NCBI RefSeq assembly: GCF_947654275.1
Contig: NZ_CANTJS010000013.1
Location: forward strand, 1 to 64,000
DNA from: an uncultured Oscillibacter sp.
GTDB lineage: Bacteria > Bacillota > Clostridia > Oscillospirales > Oscillospiraceae
Reading direction: 5' to 3'
DNA length: 64,000 nt
In this document: in pieces, positions 14,866-23,435 of the stretch
Layout of the letters: each line of letters opens with the position of its first letter
Position numbering within the stretch: the first letter of the stretch is position 1
The notes under the pieces: generated by a model
Told to the model about the DNA's origin: nothing
The model's database searches: none
The model's input: the letters and a program-made list of their open reading frames with translations, nothing else
Position numbers and translations under genes: made by a program

Positions 14866-15774
14866 TCAGCAGGGGTTTTCGATGTTCATCTGGTGTCCGC
14901 TGTAGTTGCCGGAAATCTCCCGGGCCTGGAACTTGGCGGCCTCCACCAGCTTGGCGAAATCGACGCCGGTATCATAGCCCATTTCGTTGAACATCCACAC
15001 CGTGTCCTCGGTGGACAGGTTGCCGGAGGCGCCGGGGGCGAAGGGACAGCCCCCCAGGCCGCCCAGGGCCGCCTGGATGTGGGTGACGCCGGACTCCACC
15101 GCCGCCATGGAGTTGACCATGCCGCAGCCCCGGGTGTCGTGGAAGTGGACGCCCAGCTCCACCTTGGGGAATGCGGCCTTCACCCTGGCAATCAGCTCCT
15201 TGACCTGGGCGGGGTCGGCGATGCCGATGGTGTCGCACAGGCAGCAGGTGGTCATGCCGGCGTCGGCGTAATCCTTCAGGAAGGCCACCACGGCGTCATA
15301 GTCCCGGTATTTGCCCTCGAAGGGGCAGCCGAAGGCTGTGGCCAGGTCCACGGTAACATCCAGGTCGGGGAAGGCCGCCCGGATTTCCCTGTAGGCCTCC
15401 AGGGACTGTTCGTGGGTACGGTTGATATTGGCCTTGTTGTGGCTTTTGCTGAAGGAAACCACATAGCAGACCTTCCGCAGGCCCAGGTTGTAGGCATTTT
15501 CAGCGCCCCGGAGGTTGGGAACCAGGGCAAACAGGTCCAGCTCCGGATACTTCTCCAGAACCGCCCTGGTGACGTCGGCGGCGTCCGCCAGCTGGGGAAT
15601 GGCCTTGGGGCTGACGAAAGAGGTGTATTCCATGTGGGTCACCCCGGCGTCCGCCAGCCGGTCGATGACGGCCAGCTTCTGTTCGGTGGTGATGGGGGCG
15701 CACTTTACGCTCTGGAAGCCGTCCCGGGGGCCGACTTCAACGATGTCGATTTTACCCTTGTGTACCGTGCTCAT
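14866..15774 (-). CDS. HMG-CoA lyase family enzyme, paralog 1
   Basis: A 302-aa DRE-TIM metallolyase of the HMG-CoA lyase family. Conserved catalytic features are VEVGPRDGFQ (Arg-Asp), the Glu in MEYTSFVSPK, CDTIGIADP, the metal His pair in HFHDTRG, and the flexible-loop Cys plus Asn in GGLGGCPFAPGASGN. Such enzymes cleave 3-hydroxy-3-methyl acyl-CoAs to acetyl-CoA plus an oxoacid; citramalyl-CoA lyase of Chloroflexus belongs here too. It starts 15 nt after the CoA-transferase in the same operon, so it probably acts on that enzyme's CoA ester. HMG-CoA versus citramalyl-CoA cannot be decided by eye. Confidence 0.88.
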   Translation of the reverse strand: MSTVHKGKIDIVEVGPRDGFQSVKCAPITTEQKLAVIDRLADAGVTHMEYTSFVSPKAIPQLADAADVTRAVLEKYPELDLFALVPNLRGAENAYNLGLRKVCYVVSFSKSHNKANINRTHEQSLEAYREIRAAFPDLDVTVDLATAFGCPFEGKYRDYDAVVAFLKDYADAGMTTCCLCDTIGIADPAQVKELIARVKAAFPKVELGVHFHDTRGCGMVNSMAAVESGVTHIQAALGGLGGCPFAPGASGNLSTEDTVWMFNEMGYDTGVDFAKLVEAAKFQAREISGNYSGHQMNIENPC

Positions 15775-17152: not shown

Positions 17153-17278
17153 GCTATATTCCGCCGCTTTCGCGCCGGATGCCTTTCCGTGGGACAGACA
17201 GGGAAGGAGGGAGGGGGTCTGCGTCGGAACCGGCGGCATTTTGGCGTAACATGTAACAAAATGATACGAAACTGTTCT

Positions 17279-17290
17279 ATTGTGAAACGG
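17279..17290. promoter_or_regulatory. Candidate shared enhancer motif for P1 and P2
   Basis: ATTGTGAAACGG matches ATTGTAAAACAG upstream of P3 (10 of 12 positions identical). It lies 126 bp from P1 and 119 bp from P2, in an AT-rich block (17241-17305) that also holds TGTAACA and a second GTGAAACG. Activator binding is inferred. Confidence 0.45.
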
Positions 17291-17409
17291 GTGAAACGAA
17301 TGCCGCCGGGTTTATGGAATGCCGTCCGGGAGAAACGGGAACCATCATGACAGGTTCGGAAAAAATTTTTCTGATAAATCCAGCCGCAGCCCGGGAAAAC
17401 CGGCGGGAC

Positions 17410-17425
17410 TGGCACCTGTTTTGCT
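17410..17425 (+). promoter_or_regulatory. Sigma-54 promoter P2 (AEC transporter operon)
   Basis: TGGCAC-N5-TTGCT, the near-perfect -24/-12 consensus. Transcription would start about 27 nt before the AEC start codon. Confidence 0.9.
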
Positions 17426-17462: not shown

Positions 17463-18407
17463 ATGCTTGATAATCTGCTGTTCAGCCTGAATATCAGCCT
17501 GCCCCTGTTTGTGATGATGGGGCTGGGCTGTCTGCTGGCTCATAAGGGGCTGTTTACGGAGGACTACATTGCCCGGACCACGGACCTGGTGTATTATGTG
17601 CTGCTGCCGGGGAAGCTCTTTCTGGACATCGCCACCATGGATCTCTCCACGGCCTTTGATGTCCGCTACATGGCGGTGACGCTGACGGGGGCCATGCTCC
17701 AGTTCGGCCTGGCCTGGGTCTGCGGGAATCTGCTGTGCCGGGACCGGCGGAAGCAGAGCGCCTTTGCCCATGCCTGCTTCCGGGGCAATTTTGTGTACCT
17801 GGGCGTGGCGCTGCTGCAAAACATCTACAATACCAACTCCGTGGCCTCGGCGGCGCTGATTCTGCTGGTGGTGATGCCCCTGTACAACATTCAGGGCGTC
17901 ATTCTGATGAGCGTCAAGGAGGGAAAAGGAGAGCTGCGTCTGGGTTCGCTGCTGCTGGCGGTGCTGAAAAACCCGGCGGTTCTGGCTATTCTGGCGGGTC
18001 TGCCCTTCGCCTGGTTCCAGATTCCCCTGCCCTATGTGGCGTCCAAGAGCCTGGAGTATTTCCGTTCCGCCCTGAGCACGGTGGCGCTGCTGCTGGTGGG
18101 GTCCACCATCCGGCTGGACGTGATCCGGTCTAACCTGCGGCTGCTGCTGAAAATCAGCGGCGTGAAGCTGGTGCTGATTCCGGCCCTGTGGGCGGCGTTT
18201 TCCGCCTGGGCGGGGCTGACGGCGGAGCAGATTGCCACGCTGACCATTGTGGGCGCCATGCCCGCGGCGGTGAACGTCTATGTCGTCACCGGCAAGATGG
18301 GAGGCGACGGGGAAGTGGCCAGCGGCGCGGTGGTGCTGACGCATCTGCTGTCCCTGTTTACCATGACCGGGGTGGTCTTTCTCCTCAAAAGCCTGGGGAT
18401 GGTCTGA
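17463..18407 (+). CDS. AEC (auxin efflux carrier) family permease
   Basis: A 314-aa integral membrane protein with about ten helices in two five-helix halves. N-terminal LPLFVMMGLGCLLAHKGLF and the C-terminal GAMPAAVNVYVVTGKMGGDG are typical of bacterial AEC carriers, many of which carry malate, malonate or related acids. The track extends upstream to 17319, but P2 lies inside that extension; ATG 17463 follows GGAG with 11 nt and is preferred (ATG 17454 is possible). It is the first gene of the P2 operon, 105 nt before the second lyase. Confidence 0.88.
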   Translation: MLDNLLFSLNISLPLFVMMGLGCLLAHKGLFTEDYIARTTDLVYYVLLPGKLFLDIATMDLSTAFDVRYMAVTLTGAMLQFGLAWVCGNLLCRDRRKQSAFAHACFRGNFVYLGVALLQNIYNTNSVASAALILLVVMPLYNIQGVILMSVKEGKGELRLGSLLLAVLKNPAVLAILAGLPFAWFQIPLPYVASKSLEYFRSALSTVALLLVGSTIRLDVIRSNLRLLLKISGVKLVLIPALWAAFSAWAGLTAEQIATLTIVGAMPAAVNVYVVTGKMGGDGEVASGAVVLTHLLSLFTMTGVVFLLKSLGMV

Positions 18408-19576: not shown

Positions 19577-19728
19577 ATAGTTTCCGATGCTTGAAGCCGT
19601 TTTGCCCGCCGCCGCAGGCGGCGGCCGCAAAACATGATATTCCTTCCGGCCTTTCGGTTCGGAAGCAATCAAAACAATTCCGGCCTGAGGAGCGGGCCGG
19701 GACGAGTCAGGACAGGCAGGTGAAAGGG

Positions 19729-21678
19729 ATGGAACTGGATTGGGAGAAGCTGGACTGTGTGCAGGAGATCTGCATGCTGGCCCCTACCCGGCAGCTGGCG
19801 GAAAAGGCCCGGGGCATCATCGCCGCTCGGGGCTGGGAGGCGATGGACGTGGTCCTCAGCCCCTATGGACGAAAGAATATCATGAATTGCGCCAAAGGAC
19901 TGGGGGAGAAGGGGGCCCGCATCATCGTCTCCCGGAAGGGCTCCGCCCAGATTGTGAAGGAAACCACGGATTTGAAGGTGGTCAGCCTGAACAATACGCT
20001 GATTGACTATCTCCAGACTCTGCGTATGCGGGGGCTGCATACCCCCGGCCTGGTGGCGGTGTTTTCCTATGACCCTATGGGGGAGGAGCTTCAGCGGCTG
20101 TTTGAGCTGGTGGATATCCAGGTGAAAAACTATATTTTCAAAACCGCCGAGGACTGTGACGGCTGCGTGGAGCAGGCCCTGCGTGACGGGGCGGTGTACA
20201 GCATCGGCGGCGCGTGGACCGCCCAGTCCGCCCTGGAACGGGGGCTGCCTCATGTAATCCTGGAAAATTCCGAGGAGTCCATCGTCAACGCGCTGGAAGT
20301 GGCGGACCAGATCCGCCGCCTCCAGCGGGAGGAGGAAGAGAAGCAGCGGGCGCTGAAAATCCGGATGGAGACCTATCAGGCGGTTCTGGACTTCACCCAT
20401 GACGCCATTTTGTCCATTGACGAGGAAGGCCGGGTCCAGGTGATGAACCCCGTGGCGGAGCGGATTATGGGCTGCCGGGCCGAGGATGTCATCGGGAGGC
20501 CGGTGGACCAGGTGCTGCCCAATACCCGGCTGCCGGAGGTGCTGCGCAGCGGGAAAAAACAGGTGAATCAAATTATGAAGATTCACCAGACCATGTCCAA
20601 CACCAACCGGATTCCCATTGAGGTCAACGGTCAGATACACGGTGCGGTGGCCACCTTCCAGGACGTCCGGCAGCTCCAGAGCGCGGAGCAGAAAATCCGC
20701 CTCAAGCTCCATGAAAAGGGCCTGGTGGCCAAGTATTTCTTTTCGGATATCCTGGGGGAGTCCTCCGCCATCAAAAAGGCCGTGGCCGTGGCCCAGAGCT
20801 ATGCGGCTTCTCAGGCTGCGGTGCTGATTCACGGCGAGACCGGCACCGGCAAGGAGCTCTTTGCCCAGAGCATCCACAACGCCAGCGCCCGGCGGGACGG
20901 TCCCTTTGTGGCGCTGAACTGCGCCGCCGTCAACAGCAGTCTGCTGGAAAGCGAGCTCTTCGGCTATGAGGCCGGGGCCTTCACCGGGGCCTCCAAGGGG
21001 GGCCGGGAGGGCCTTTTTGAGCTGGCCCACGGCGGCACCATCTTCCTGGACGAAATCGGCGATATCCCCAGGGAGACACAGGTGGAGCTGCTGCGGGTGC
21101 TCCAGGAGAAGGAAATCCGCCGGGTAGGCGGCGACCGGGTGATTCCTGTGGACGTGCGCATCATCACCGCCACCAACCGGGACCTGCCCCAGGAGGTCGC
21201 CGGCGGAAGCTTCCGCCAGGACCTCTATTACCGCCTGGACGTGCTGGACCTGGAGCTGCCGCCTCTGCGGGCCCGGGAGAGCGACGCCCGCATCCTGGGA
21301 CTCCACCTGTTCCGGCAGATGCAGGACGGAGAGGACCCGGCCATACAGGCCCGGTTTCTGGAGCTGCTGGACCAGGTGGGGGATTACCCCTGGTACGGCA
21401 ACATCCGGGAATTGCAGAACTTCGTGGAGCGTACACACATTCTGCTCCGGAGCCATGTGGACCTCCGGGACAGCCGGCAGGGACTGCTGTGCCGCCGGGC
21501 TTCCGCCTCCGAAACGGAAGCAGCGGGAGGGCCCAGGACCCGGGAGGACCGGGAGCGGGCCGCCATTCGGGAGGCTCTGGAGGCCTTCCCGGCATCTCTG
21601 GAGGAGGCTGCACGGAGTCTGGGGTGCAGCCGTCAGACACTCTGGAGAAAAATGAAGAAGTATGGAATCACACGCTGA
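19729..21678 (+). CDS. PrpR-type sigma-54-dependent transcriptional activator
   Basis: A 649-aa enhancer-binding protein. Domain order: PrpR_N sensor (about 10-180), a PAS domain (about 210-320), a sigma-54 AAA+ module with Walker [11 protein letters not shown], the sigma-contact loop GAFTGA and Walker [11 protein letters not shown], then a Fis-type helix-turn-helix ([20 protein letters not shown]). PrpR_N domains sense organic acids such as methylcitrate. ATG 19729 behind AGGTGAAAGGG is chosen over the track start at 19591, which is upstream extension. It lies between its presumed targets: P1/P2 on one side and P3 on the other. Confidence 0.93.
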
Positions 21679-21719
21679 GAGCGTTGCGAGGCTCCAGGAT
21701 TGACGTTGCAATCTGAAAC

Positions 21720-21731
21720 ATTGTAAAACAG
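21720..21731. promoter_or_regulatory. Candidate enhancer motif upstream of P3
   Basis: ATTGTAAAACAG resembles the 17279 motif. TGTTACA follows at 21736-21742. The distance to P3 is 131 bp, in the usual enhancer range. Confidence 0.45.
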
Positions 21732-21862
21732 AATATGTTACACACCTGCAACATCCTGAAAAACACGAGAAAGCGGATTCGTCTTTTTTCGCAGCCGTTC
21801 AAAAACTGTCCATATTTTCCGTCAATGCGTCTAAAGATTTTCGTCAGGTGGAAGCGGATATT

Positions 21863-21878
21863 TGGCATTGTTTTTGCT
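21863..21878 (+). promoter_or_regulatory. Sigma-54 promoter P3 (DASS transporter)
   Basis: TGGCAT-N5-TTGCT, exact -24/-12 spacing. It would give a leader of about 77 nt before the transporter gene. Confidence 0.88.
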
Positions 21879-21965
21879 TCTATTTTTTCCGTACCGGTGA
21901 GCGGCGAGGCAGCCGGCACAGCGCCCCATCCGTCGGCGCACACAAAATAATAGGAGGAGAAATTG

Positions 21966-23435
21966 ATGGGTAAGTATCCAATTCGCAAAGTCGGCTTCAT
22001 CGTGGGCATTCTGCTGATGCTGATTATCGGCTTCATGCCTACCCCTGCGGGCCTGGCGGCGGTTGTTCCTGAGGGAGCGCCCCCGGAGCTGGCTCAGAGA
22101 GTGCTGGCAGTAACGGTTCTGATGGTGGTTTTCTGGATTACAGAGGCCATGCCGATTCCCTTTACCGCACTGCTCCCGATTCTGCTGTTCCCTCTGATGG
22201 CCATTACCGGCGCCAAGGGCGAGAACGGCATCCAGCTGTTCCGGCACTACGCCTATCAGACCTGCTACCTGCTGGTGGGCGTGGGTTTCCTGTCCGGCTC
22301 CATGGTCAAGCACGGCCTGCATAAGCGTCTGGCCCTGGGCATCGTCAGCAAGGTGGGCAAGAAGCCCACCACCCTGATTCTGGGCTTCATCATCGCCGTG
22401 GCGTTTGTCTCCATGTGGATGAGCAACACCGCCGCCACCGTCATGATGCTCCCCATTGCCATGTCCATCGCCTCTACCCTGGACGAGGACAAGAGCTCTT
22501 TGAAGAAGGCAATGCTGCTGTCCATCCCCTATGCAGCAACAATCGGCGGCATGTCGACCACCATCGGCACCACCACGAACCCCACAGGTATCGGATTGAT
22601 TGCCGAGACCATCGGCGTTGATATCAACTTTGTGGACTGGCTGAAAATCGGCCTGCCCTTCACTGTGATTCTGATTCCCCTGATGTGGATTTACATGGTG
22701 AAGTTCTTCAAGGTGGACAAGATGGAGGCCGTGGACATCTCCGAAGCCCACAAGCAGTATGAGGCTCTCGGCCCCATGAACAAGGGCGAGAAGTGGACCG
22801 CCATCATCTTCCTGATCTGCGTGGTCCTGTGGTGCACCCGCTCCATCGTCTGGGGCAAGTACATGAAGTTCGCCTCCGATGAGACCGTCGCCATGCTGGG
22901 CGCGTTCCTGGTGATGGCCATTCCTCTGAACTACAAAGAGGGCGAGAATGTCTGCGACTGGAAGACCGGCTTCAACGACATCCCCTGGAACGCGGTCATC
23001 CTGCTGGGCGGCTCCATGGTCATGGGCAACGCCTTCAAGGACGCCGGCTGCGCCACCTGGGTCGCCAACATGCTGGGCGGTCTCGCCGGCATGAATGCTG
23101 TGGTCATCTGCATCATCGTCGGCCTGGTCACCGCCCTGCTGACGGAGCTGACCACCAACGCCGTTGTGGTTGCGGCCTTCATCCCTGTTCTGGCAGGCGT
23201 GGGCACGGCCATCGGCGTCAGCCCCTTCGCCATGATGATTGCCACCATGCTGGCCTGCAACTTTGCCTTTATGCTGCCTCCCGCCACGCCTCCCAACGCC
23301 ATTGCCTACGGTACCGGCGAGATCACCATGAAGGACCTGGTTACCTGCGGCCTTGGACTGAAGCTGATCGCTCTGGTGGTGTTCCCCATTGTGCTGTACG
23401 GCATCACCATGGGCCTGTTCGGCATCGGCGCCTGA
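21966..23435 (+). CDS. DASS/SLC13 family sodium:dicarboxylate symporter
   Basis: A 489-aa transporter with 11-13 membrane segments. The two conserved Ser-Asn-Thr-type motifs are visible: WMSNTAATVMMLPIA with TTIGTTTNPTG in the first half, and TELTTNAVVVAAFIP with PPATPPNAIAYGTG in the second. The family imports succinate, malate, citrate and related acids with Na+. An AGGAGGAGAAATTG site precedes ATG 21966. Control by P3 ties it to the neighbouring CoA-transferase/lyase genes. It differs from the AEC carrier in family and mechanism, so the island has two uptake or exchange routes. Confidence 0.93.
   Translation: MGKYPIRKVGFIVGILLMLIIGFMPTPAGLAAVVPEGAPPELAQRVLAVTVLMVVFWITEAMPIPFTALLPILLFPLMAITGAKGENGIQLFRHYAYQTCYLLVGVGFLSGSMVKHGLHKRLALGIVSKVGKKPTTLILGFIIAVAFVSMWMSNTAATVMMLPIAMSIASTLDEDKSSLKKAMLLSIPYAATIGGMSTTIGTTTNPTGIGLIAETIGVDINFVDWLKIGLPFTVILIPLMWIYMVKFFKVDKMEAVDISEAHKQYEALGPMNKGEKWTAIIFLICVVLWCTRSIVWGKYMKFASDETVAMLGAFLVMAIPLNYKEGENVCDWKTGFNDIPWNAVILLGGSMVMGNAFKDAGCATWVANMLGGLAGMNAVVICIIVGLVTALLTELTTNAVVVAAFIPVLAGVGTAIGVSPFAMMIATMLACNFAFMLPPATPPNAIAYGTGEITMKDLVTCGLGLKLIALVVFPIVLYGITMGLFGIGA

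Follow-up and report, generated by a model that had tools for sequence, protein, structure and literature searches.

Divergent sigma-54 operons under a common activator are known from several bacteria. The orp1 and orp2 operons of Desulfovibrio vulgaris are jointly activated by their cognate regulator DVU2106, which, as reporter assays and gel shifts show, acts through palindromic intergenic sites approximately 90–130 bp upstream of the transcription starts (PMC3897727). Control of divergent T3SS operons in Desulfovibrio by one activator, DVUA0100, is predicted (PMC4641369). In Escherichia coli, the bidirectional transcription units zraP and zraSR are separated by a single spacer, to which the sigma-54-type activator ZraR binds (PMC8249747). 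The one-component activators of the Clostridiales, PrdR among them, carry a Fis-type HTH domain and recognize TGT-N10-12-ACA sites; these sites are often several in number and lie mostly 100–250 bp upstream of targets that usually adjoin the activator gene (PMC6615313).

The locus described here lies in a 64-kb stretch of DNA (the window) from a 3.05-Mb assembly of 111 contigs that is 93% complete. The preferred reading, held at a probability of about 0.7, is that positions 17245–17289 form an upstream activating sequence with two sites for the sigma-54 activator whose gene lies 2 kb away, at 19591–21678, and serve the two divergent operons that start at promoters P1 and P2.

Results

Promoters and activator of the locus

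The CoA-transferase and HMG-CoA-lyase-like genes run leftward, and the AEC transporter, the second HMG-CoA-lyase-like gene, the activator and the DASS transporter follow one another rightward. The genes and promoters are:

14866–15774, minus strand: HMG-CoA-lyase-like gene, second behind P1
15790–16989, minus strand: CoA-transferase family III (CaiB type) gene, first behind P1
17138–17152, minus strand (read 17152–17138): P1, sigma-54 promoter TGGCATGGGATTTGC of the CoA-transferase/HMG-CoA-lyase-like operon
17410–17424, plus strand: P2, sigma-54 promoter TGGCACCTGTTTTGC of the AEC transporter operon
17463–18407, plus strand: AEC (auxin efflux carrier type) transporter gene, behind P2
18513–19436, plus strand: second HMG-CoA-lyase-like gene
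19591–21678, plus strand: sigma-54 activator gene (695 aa; PrpR_N, PAS, AAA+ and Fis-type HTH domains)
21863–21877, plus strand: P3, sigma-54 promoter TGGCATTGTTTTTGC of the DASS transporter gene
21963–23435, plus strand: DASS-family sodium-coupled anion symporter gene, behind P3

All three promoters match the -24/-12 pattern TGGCAY-N5-TTGC. They are credible as sigma-54 promoters because the 3.05-Mb genome holds just 13 perfect matches, against 5 for a reversed control pattern, and 3 of the 13 are found here. A perfect TGGCAC-N5-TTGC is present at P1 of the sibling species G034 as well, and a consensus sigma-54 promoter occupies the P3 position in 6 of 6 orthologous loci. The rpoN gene was not found in this 93%-complete assembly with either Pfam domain and is present in all six relatives that have the locus (G034, G008, G045, G038, G035 and G049); its absence is most likely an assembly gap.

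The initial annotation called the activator PrpR-type. The PrpR_N domain is indeed present, and the term names this domain rather than the identity of the protein. The activator scores 361.7 bits against the NCBIfam PrpR model (TIGR02329; cut-off 499.2) and 390.6 bits against PrdR (cut-off 795). Because both scores fall below the cut-offs, it is assigned by sequence comparison to an ortholog group separate from PrdR and PrpR.

A 17-bp inverted repeat upstream of the promoters

The initial annotation proposed a 12-mer as a single enhancer, shared by P1 and P2 and equidistant from them, on the strength of a similar 12-mer upstream of P3. The two elements, ATTGTGAAACGG at 17279–17290 and ATTGTAAAACAG at 21720–21731, are where they were reported, and the distances given (126 bp to P1, 119 bp to P2 and 131 bp to P3) are correct. 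Their likeness carries little weight as evidence: a pair agreeing in 10 of 12 letters occurs between the two regions in 72% of dinucleotide shuffles, a share that falls to 11% when the distances must also agree within 12 bp. The corresponding elements in G034 read ATTATGAAACAG and CTATAAAACAAA, with the common letters lost. On the shuffles and the sibling genome together, the 12-mer is rejected as the recognition unit. A side remark in the same annotation, that TGTAACA/TGTTACA occurs near both elements, proved the better clue, since TGTAACA at 17252 starts the strongest site described below.

The proposed unit is a 17-bp inverted repeat, approximately TGTTRC-N5-GYAACA (TGT-N11-ACA). The ortholog set comprises seven genomes from the genus, each encoding a close ortholog of the activator; a search of 401 family members for further orthologs returned none outside the genus. 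A palindromic matrix, tGTtaCannntGtaACa, was trained on non-coding DNA from five other species, taken upstream of P3 in all five and also upstream of the CoA-transferase promoter in three, with the window and G034 excluded from the fit. The 17-bp seed form was chosen after the ortholog regions and the window had been viewed together, so its choice was not entirely blind. Without a seed, searches restricted to the orthologs returned the same half-sites and ranked the 17-bp form as one of the few best of its width, but not first; a free, non-palindromic search returned GTTGCA/GTTACA half-sites and no longer unit. When the end of the activator gene was included, the motif search recovered conserved HTH codons alone, and coding parts were then removed.

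The five best matrix matches in the window start at 17252, 21704, 21714, 17273 and 21747, and all five sit in the intergenic regions upstream of P1/P2 and P3. They define two predicted arrays, listed here without strand:

17245–17289: predicted upstream activating array between P1 and P2, with two 17-bp inverted repeats and an overlapping extra half-site, GTAACA
17252–17268: site A, TGTAACAAAATGATACG, score 18.9, rank 1 in the window
17273–17289: site B, TGTTCTATTGTGAAACG, score 12.5, fourth best in the window
21704–21763: predicted upstream activating array for P3, immediately after the activator gene
21704–21720: P3 array site, score 17.7, centre 151 bp from P3
21714–21730: P3 array site, score 13.2, centre 141 bp from P3, containing most of ATTGTAAAACAG
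21747–21763: P3 array site, score 12.5, centre 108 bp from P3

A further half-site, GTGAAACG, directly follows the intergenic array. The supposed single enhancer comprises at least two sites plus extra half-sites. ATTGTGAAACGG lies mostly inside site B and is the right half of that weaker site.

The repeats might be chance occurrences, or parts of a terminator hairpin with no regulatory role. The chance-level result of the 12-mer comparison is in keeping with this view, as is the P3 region of G049, where the repeat approximately 120–160 bp upstream of the promoter (L108:10578) is a hairpin of inverted repeats, TGTTGCGTA...TACGCAACA, with T-runs after it, and resembles a terminator of the activator gene. 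The matrix statistics argue the other way. A matrix built from other species gives ranks 1 and 2 in 64 kb to one site in each array (18.9 and 17.7), and none of 200 window shuffles reaches either score, the best being 16.9. Approximately 0.75 matches scoring at least 12.4 are expected by chance per 64 kb. The intergenic array is also more conserved than its surroundings, with 89% identity to G034 against 57% and 80% in the flanks. Chance or a bare terminator is thus a very improbable account. In G049, an activator site and the terminator of the activator gene may overlap.

Counts of half-sites (GHAAC, either strand) show clusters that precede several P3 promoters, and P1/P2, by approximately 110–175 bp, and the cluster at 17245–17289 has p < 1/300 by shuffling. 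The strict form of the motif occurs at six places in the genome, two of them at this locus. Another, at C54:11853, lies without a sigma-54 promoter ahead of what appears by eye to be a threonine aldolase gene and is probably a chance match.

The repeats could also bind a different regulator, either an unrelated factor or one of the other four sigma-54 activators, as the genome holds five clear ones in all. This is improbable: the same motif stands directly behind the 19591–21678 activator gene at P3, and it is absent (no score ≥10.5) within 1.5 kb of the sigma-54 promoters C11:22847, C41:7811 and C69:5461, which lie beside other activator genes. Two of these genes occupy C41:3535–7150 on opposite strands, approximately 3 kb apart, and the perfect promoter at C41:7811 lies approximately 0.7 kb past the AAA+ domain of one of them.

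Spacing of the sites

Measured from its center, site A lies at 108 bp (P1) and 150 bp (P2), and site B at 129 bp from each promoter; the two sites are 21 bp apart, which corresponds to two helical turns. With the yardstick for upstream activating sequence spacing taken from PMC6615313, the array contains more than one inverted repeat at approximately 100–250 bp upstream, and as one array it has workable spacing to both P1 and P2, the geometry of a shared enhancer.

In G034, whose activator is 96% identical, the distances are 117 and 138 bp to P1, 149 and 128 bp to P2, and 151, 141 and 108 bp to P3. The P2 spacing is therefore kept within 1 bp and the P3 spacing is identical, whereas the P1 spacing shifts by 9 bp. 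In the window, the best-scoring site is 150 bp away for P2 and 151 bp away for P3; in G034, the figures are 149 and 151 bp. The equidistance noted in the initial annotation is exact for the weaker site B in this genome and is not conserved, being 138/128 bp in G034. Since the P2 and P3 spacings are fixed and the P1 spacing drifts, the exact equidistance holds in this genome by coincidence.

Orthologous loci

In G045, G008 and G038, the motif precedes the CoA-transferase promoter by approximately 95–115 bp. The CoA-transferase and activator genes are on different contigs in G045 and G008, and in G038 the CoA-transferase gene lies beyond the DASS gene. Retention of the motif at these displaced promoters therefore ties it to the activator in trans and points to P1 as a target. 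The 17-bp inverted repeat recurs in the orthologous regions: it is found at P3 and at the three CoA-transferase promoters, weakly at P3 of G045, G038 and G049. When each genome was left out of the fit in turn, the P1/P2 and CoA-transferase sites ranked first or second in their own loci, and the P3 sites of the latter three genomes were found weakly and ranked poorly by the 17-bp matrix. Because the motif from other species ranks the intergenic spot first and recurs at P3 and the CoA-transferase promoters, comparative sequence evidence makes this spot very probably the binding region of the neighboring PrpR_N-type sigma-54 activator. To this extent the activator site of the initial annotation stands, with the 17-bp repeat in place of the 12-mer as its unit.

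The connection to P2 is less widely distributed. A matrix scan placed no such site upstream of the transporter promoters of G008, G045 and G038, and the tie to P2 therefore rests on two close species. The array may then serve one promoter, most likely P1, with P2 controlled by another activator or from elsewhere and the closeness of the array to P2 a by-product of the divergent gene order. The motif does accompany the CoA-transferase promoter and not the transporter promoter in G045, G008 and G038, and G045 and G038 have another activator gene (approximately 40% identical) directly before the transporter. Control of one promoter is nevertheless judged unlikely, as it is the P2 spacing that stays within 1 bp between the window and G034 and matches that of P3, with the P1 spacing drifting, and no other array of sites lies upstream of P2.

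Good copies of the motif occur behind the transporter, in the gap before the HMG-CoA-lyase-like gene, in G038 (L106:7331–7347, score 18.0) and G045 (L105:8513–8529, score 13.5). No clear sigma-54 promoter follows either copy; each may be an enhancer acting from downstream, or a remnant.

The divergent pair is also present in G049 (L108:4944–5014), with its sigma-54 promoters back to back and 41 bp apart. There is no site between these promoters and no recognizable one close by, and the entire intergenic region is without a half-site. The 13-residue recognition helix of the activator is invariant in 7 of 7 orthologs, G049 included. Among relatives with the divergent pair, the arrangement with the array is kept in G034 and not in G049; the shared arrangement, as read from these genomes, therefore appears to be specific to a lineage, one pair of close species, and not general. 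The suggestion that one site serves both directions is plausible for this pair and does not carry over to G049.

Discussion

The reading favored here is a two-site array that serves the operons of both P1 and P2. Dimers of the activator would bind inverted repeats A and B and assemble into an AAA+ oligomer, which would loop in either direction and remodel the sigma-54 polymerase waiting at P1 and P2. P1 would then yield the CoA-transferase and HMG-CoA-lyase-like products, and P2 the AEC transporter and the second HMG-CoA-lyase-like protein. The second array, behind the activator gene, would act likewise on P3 and the DASS transporter. Together the arrays may coordinate how an organic acid is taken up and cleaved in a CoA-dependent manner, this acid presumably being the activator's signal or the precursor of that signal.

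One array acting in both directions is a plausible inference. The narrower proposal that a single oligomer on this array drives P1 and P2 at once, and that the sharing is a recent rearrangement, is tentative and more doubtful than probable. The rearrangement is suggested because the CoA-transferase promoter of relatives has its own array elsewhere and their transporter promoter has none.

The analysis yields a candidate binding motif and three target promoters for a PrpR_N-type activator, along with a few relatives whose versions of these operons carry an enhancer that is either shared or separate; it leaves the general picture of sigma-54 control unchanged. Common activator control of divergent sigma-54 operons is already known from the orp, T3SS and zraP/zraSR systems, and the arrangement proposed here is sensible and ordinary. 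Each orp operon has its own site and is helped by IHF, whereas the present locus has one array between its two promoters, with the activator gene elsewhere in the cluster. The activator and genes of the Desulfovibrio T3SS system differ from those of this locus, and ZraR differs in being the response regulator of a two-component system and in controlling its own operon as well. The motif falls within the TGT-N10-12-ACA class of the Clostridiales activators, with which the locus has in common the Fis-type HTH, inverted TGT/ACA repeats, multiple sites, 100–250 bp spacing and neighboring targets; the locus differs from PrdR of that class in an activator that falls below both family cut-offs.
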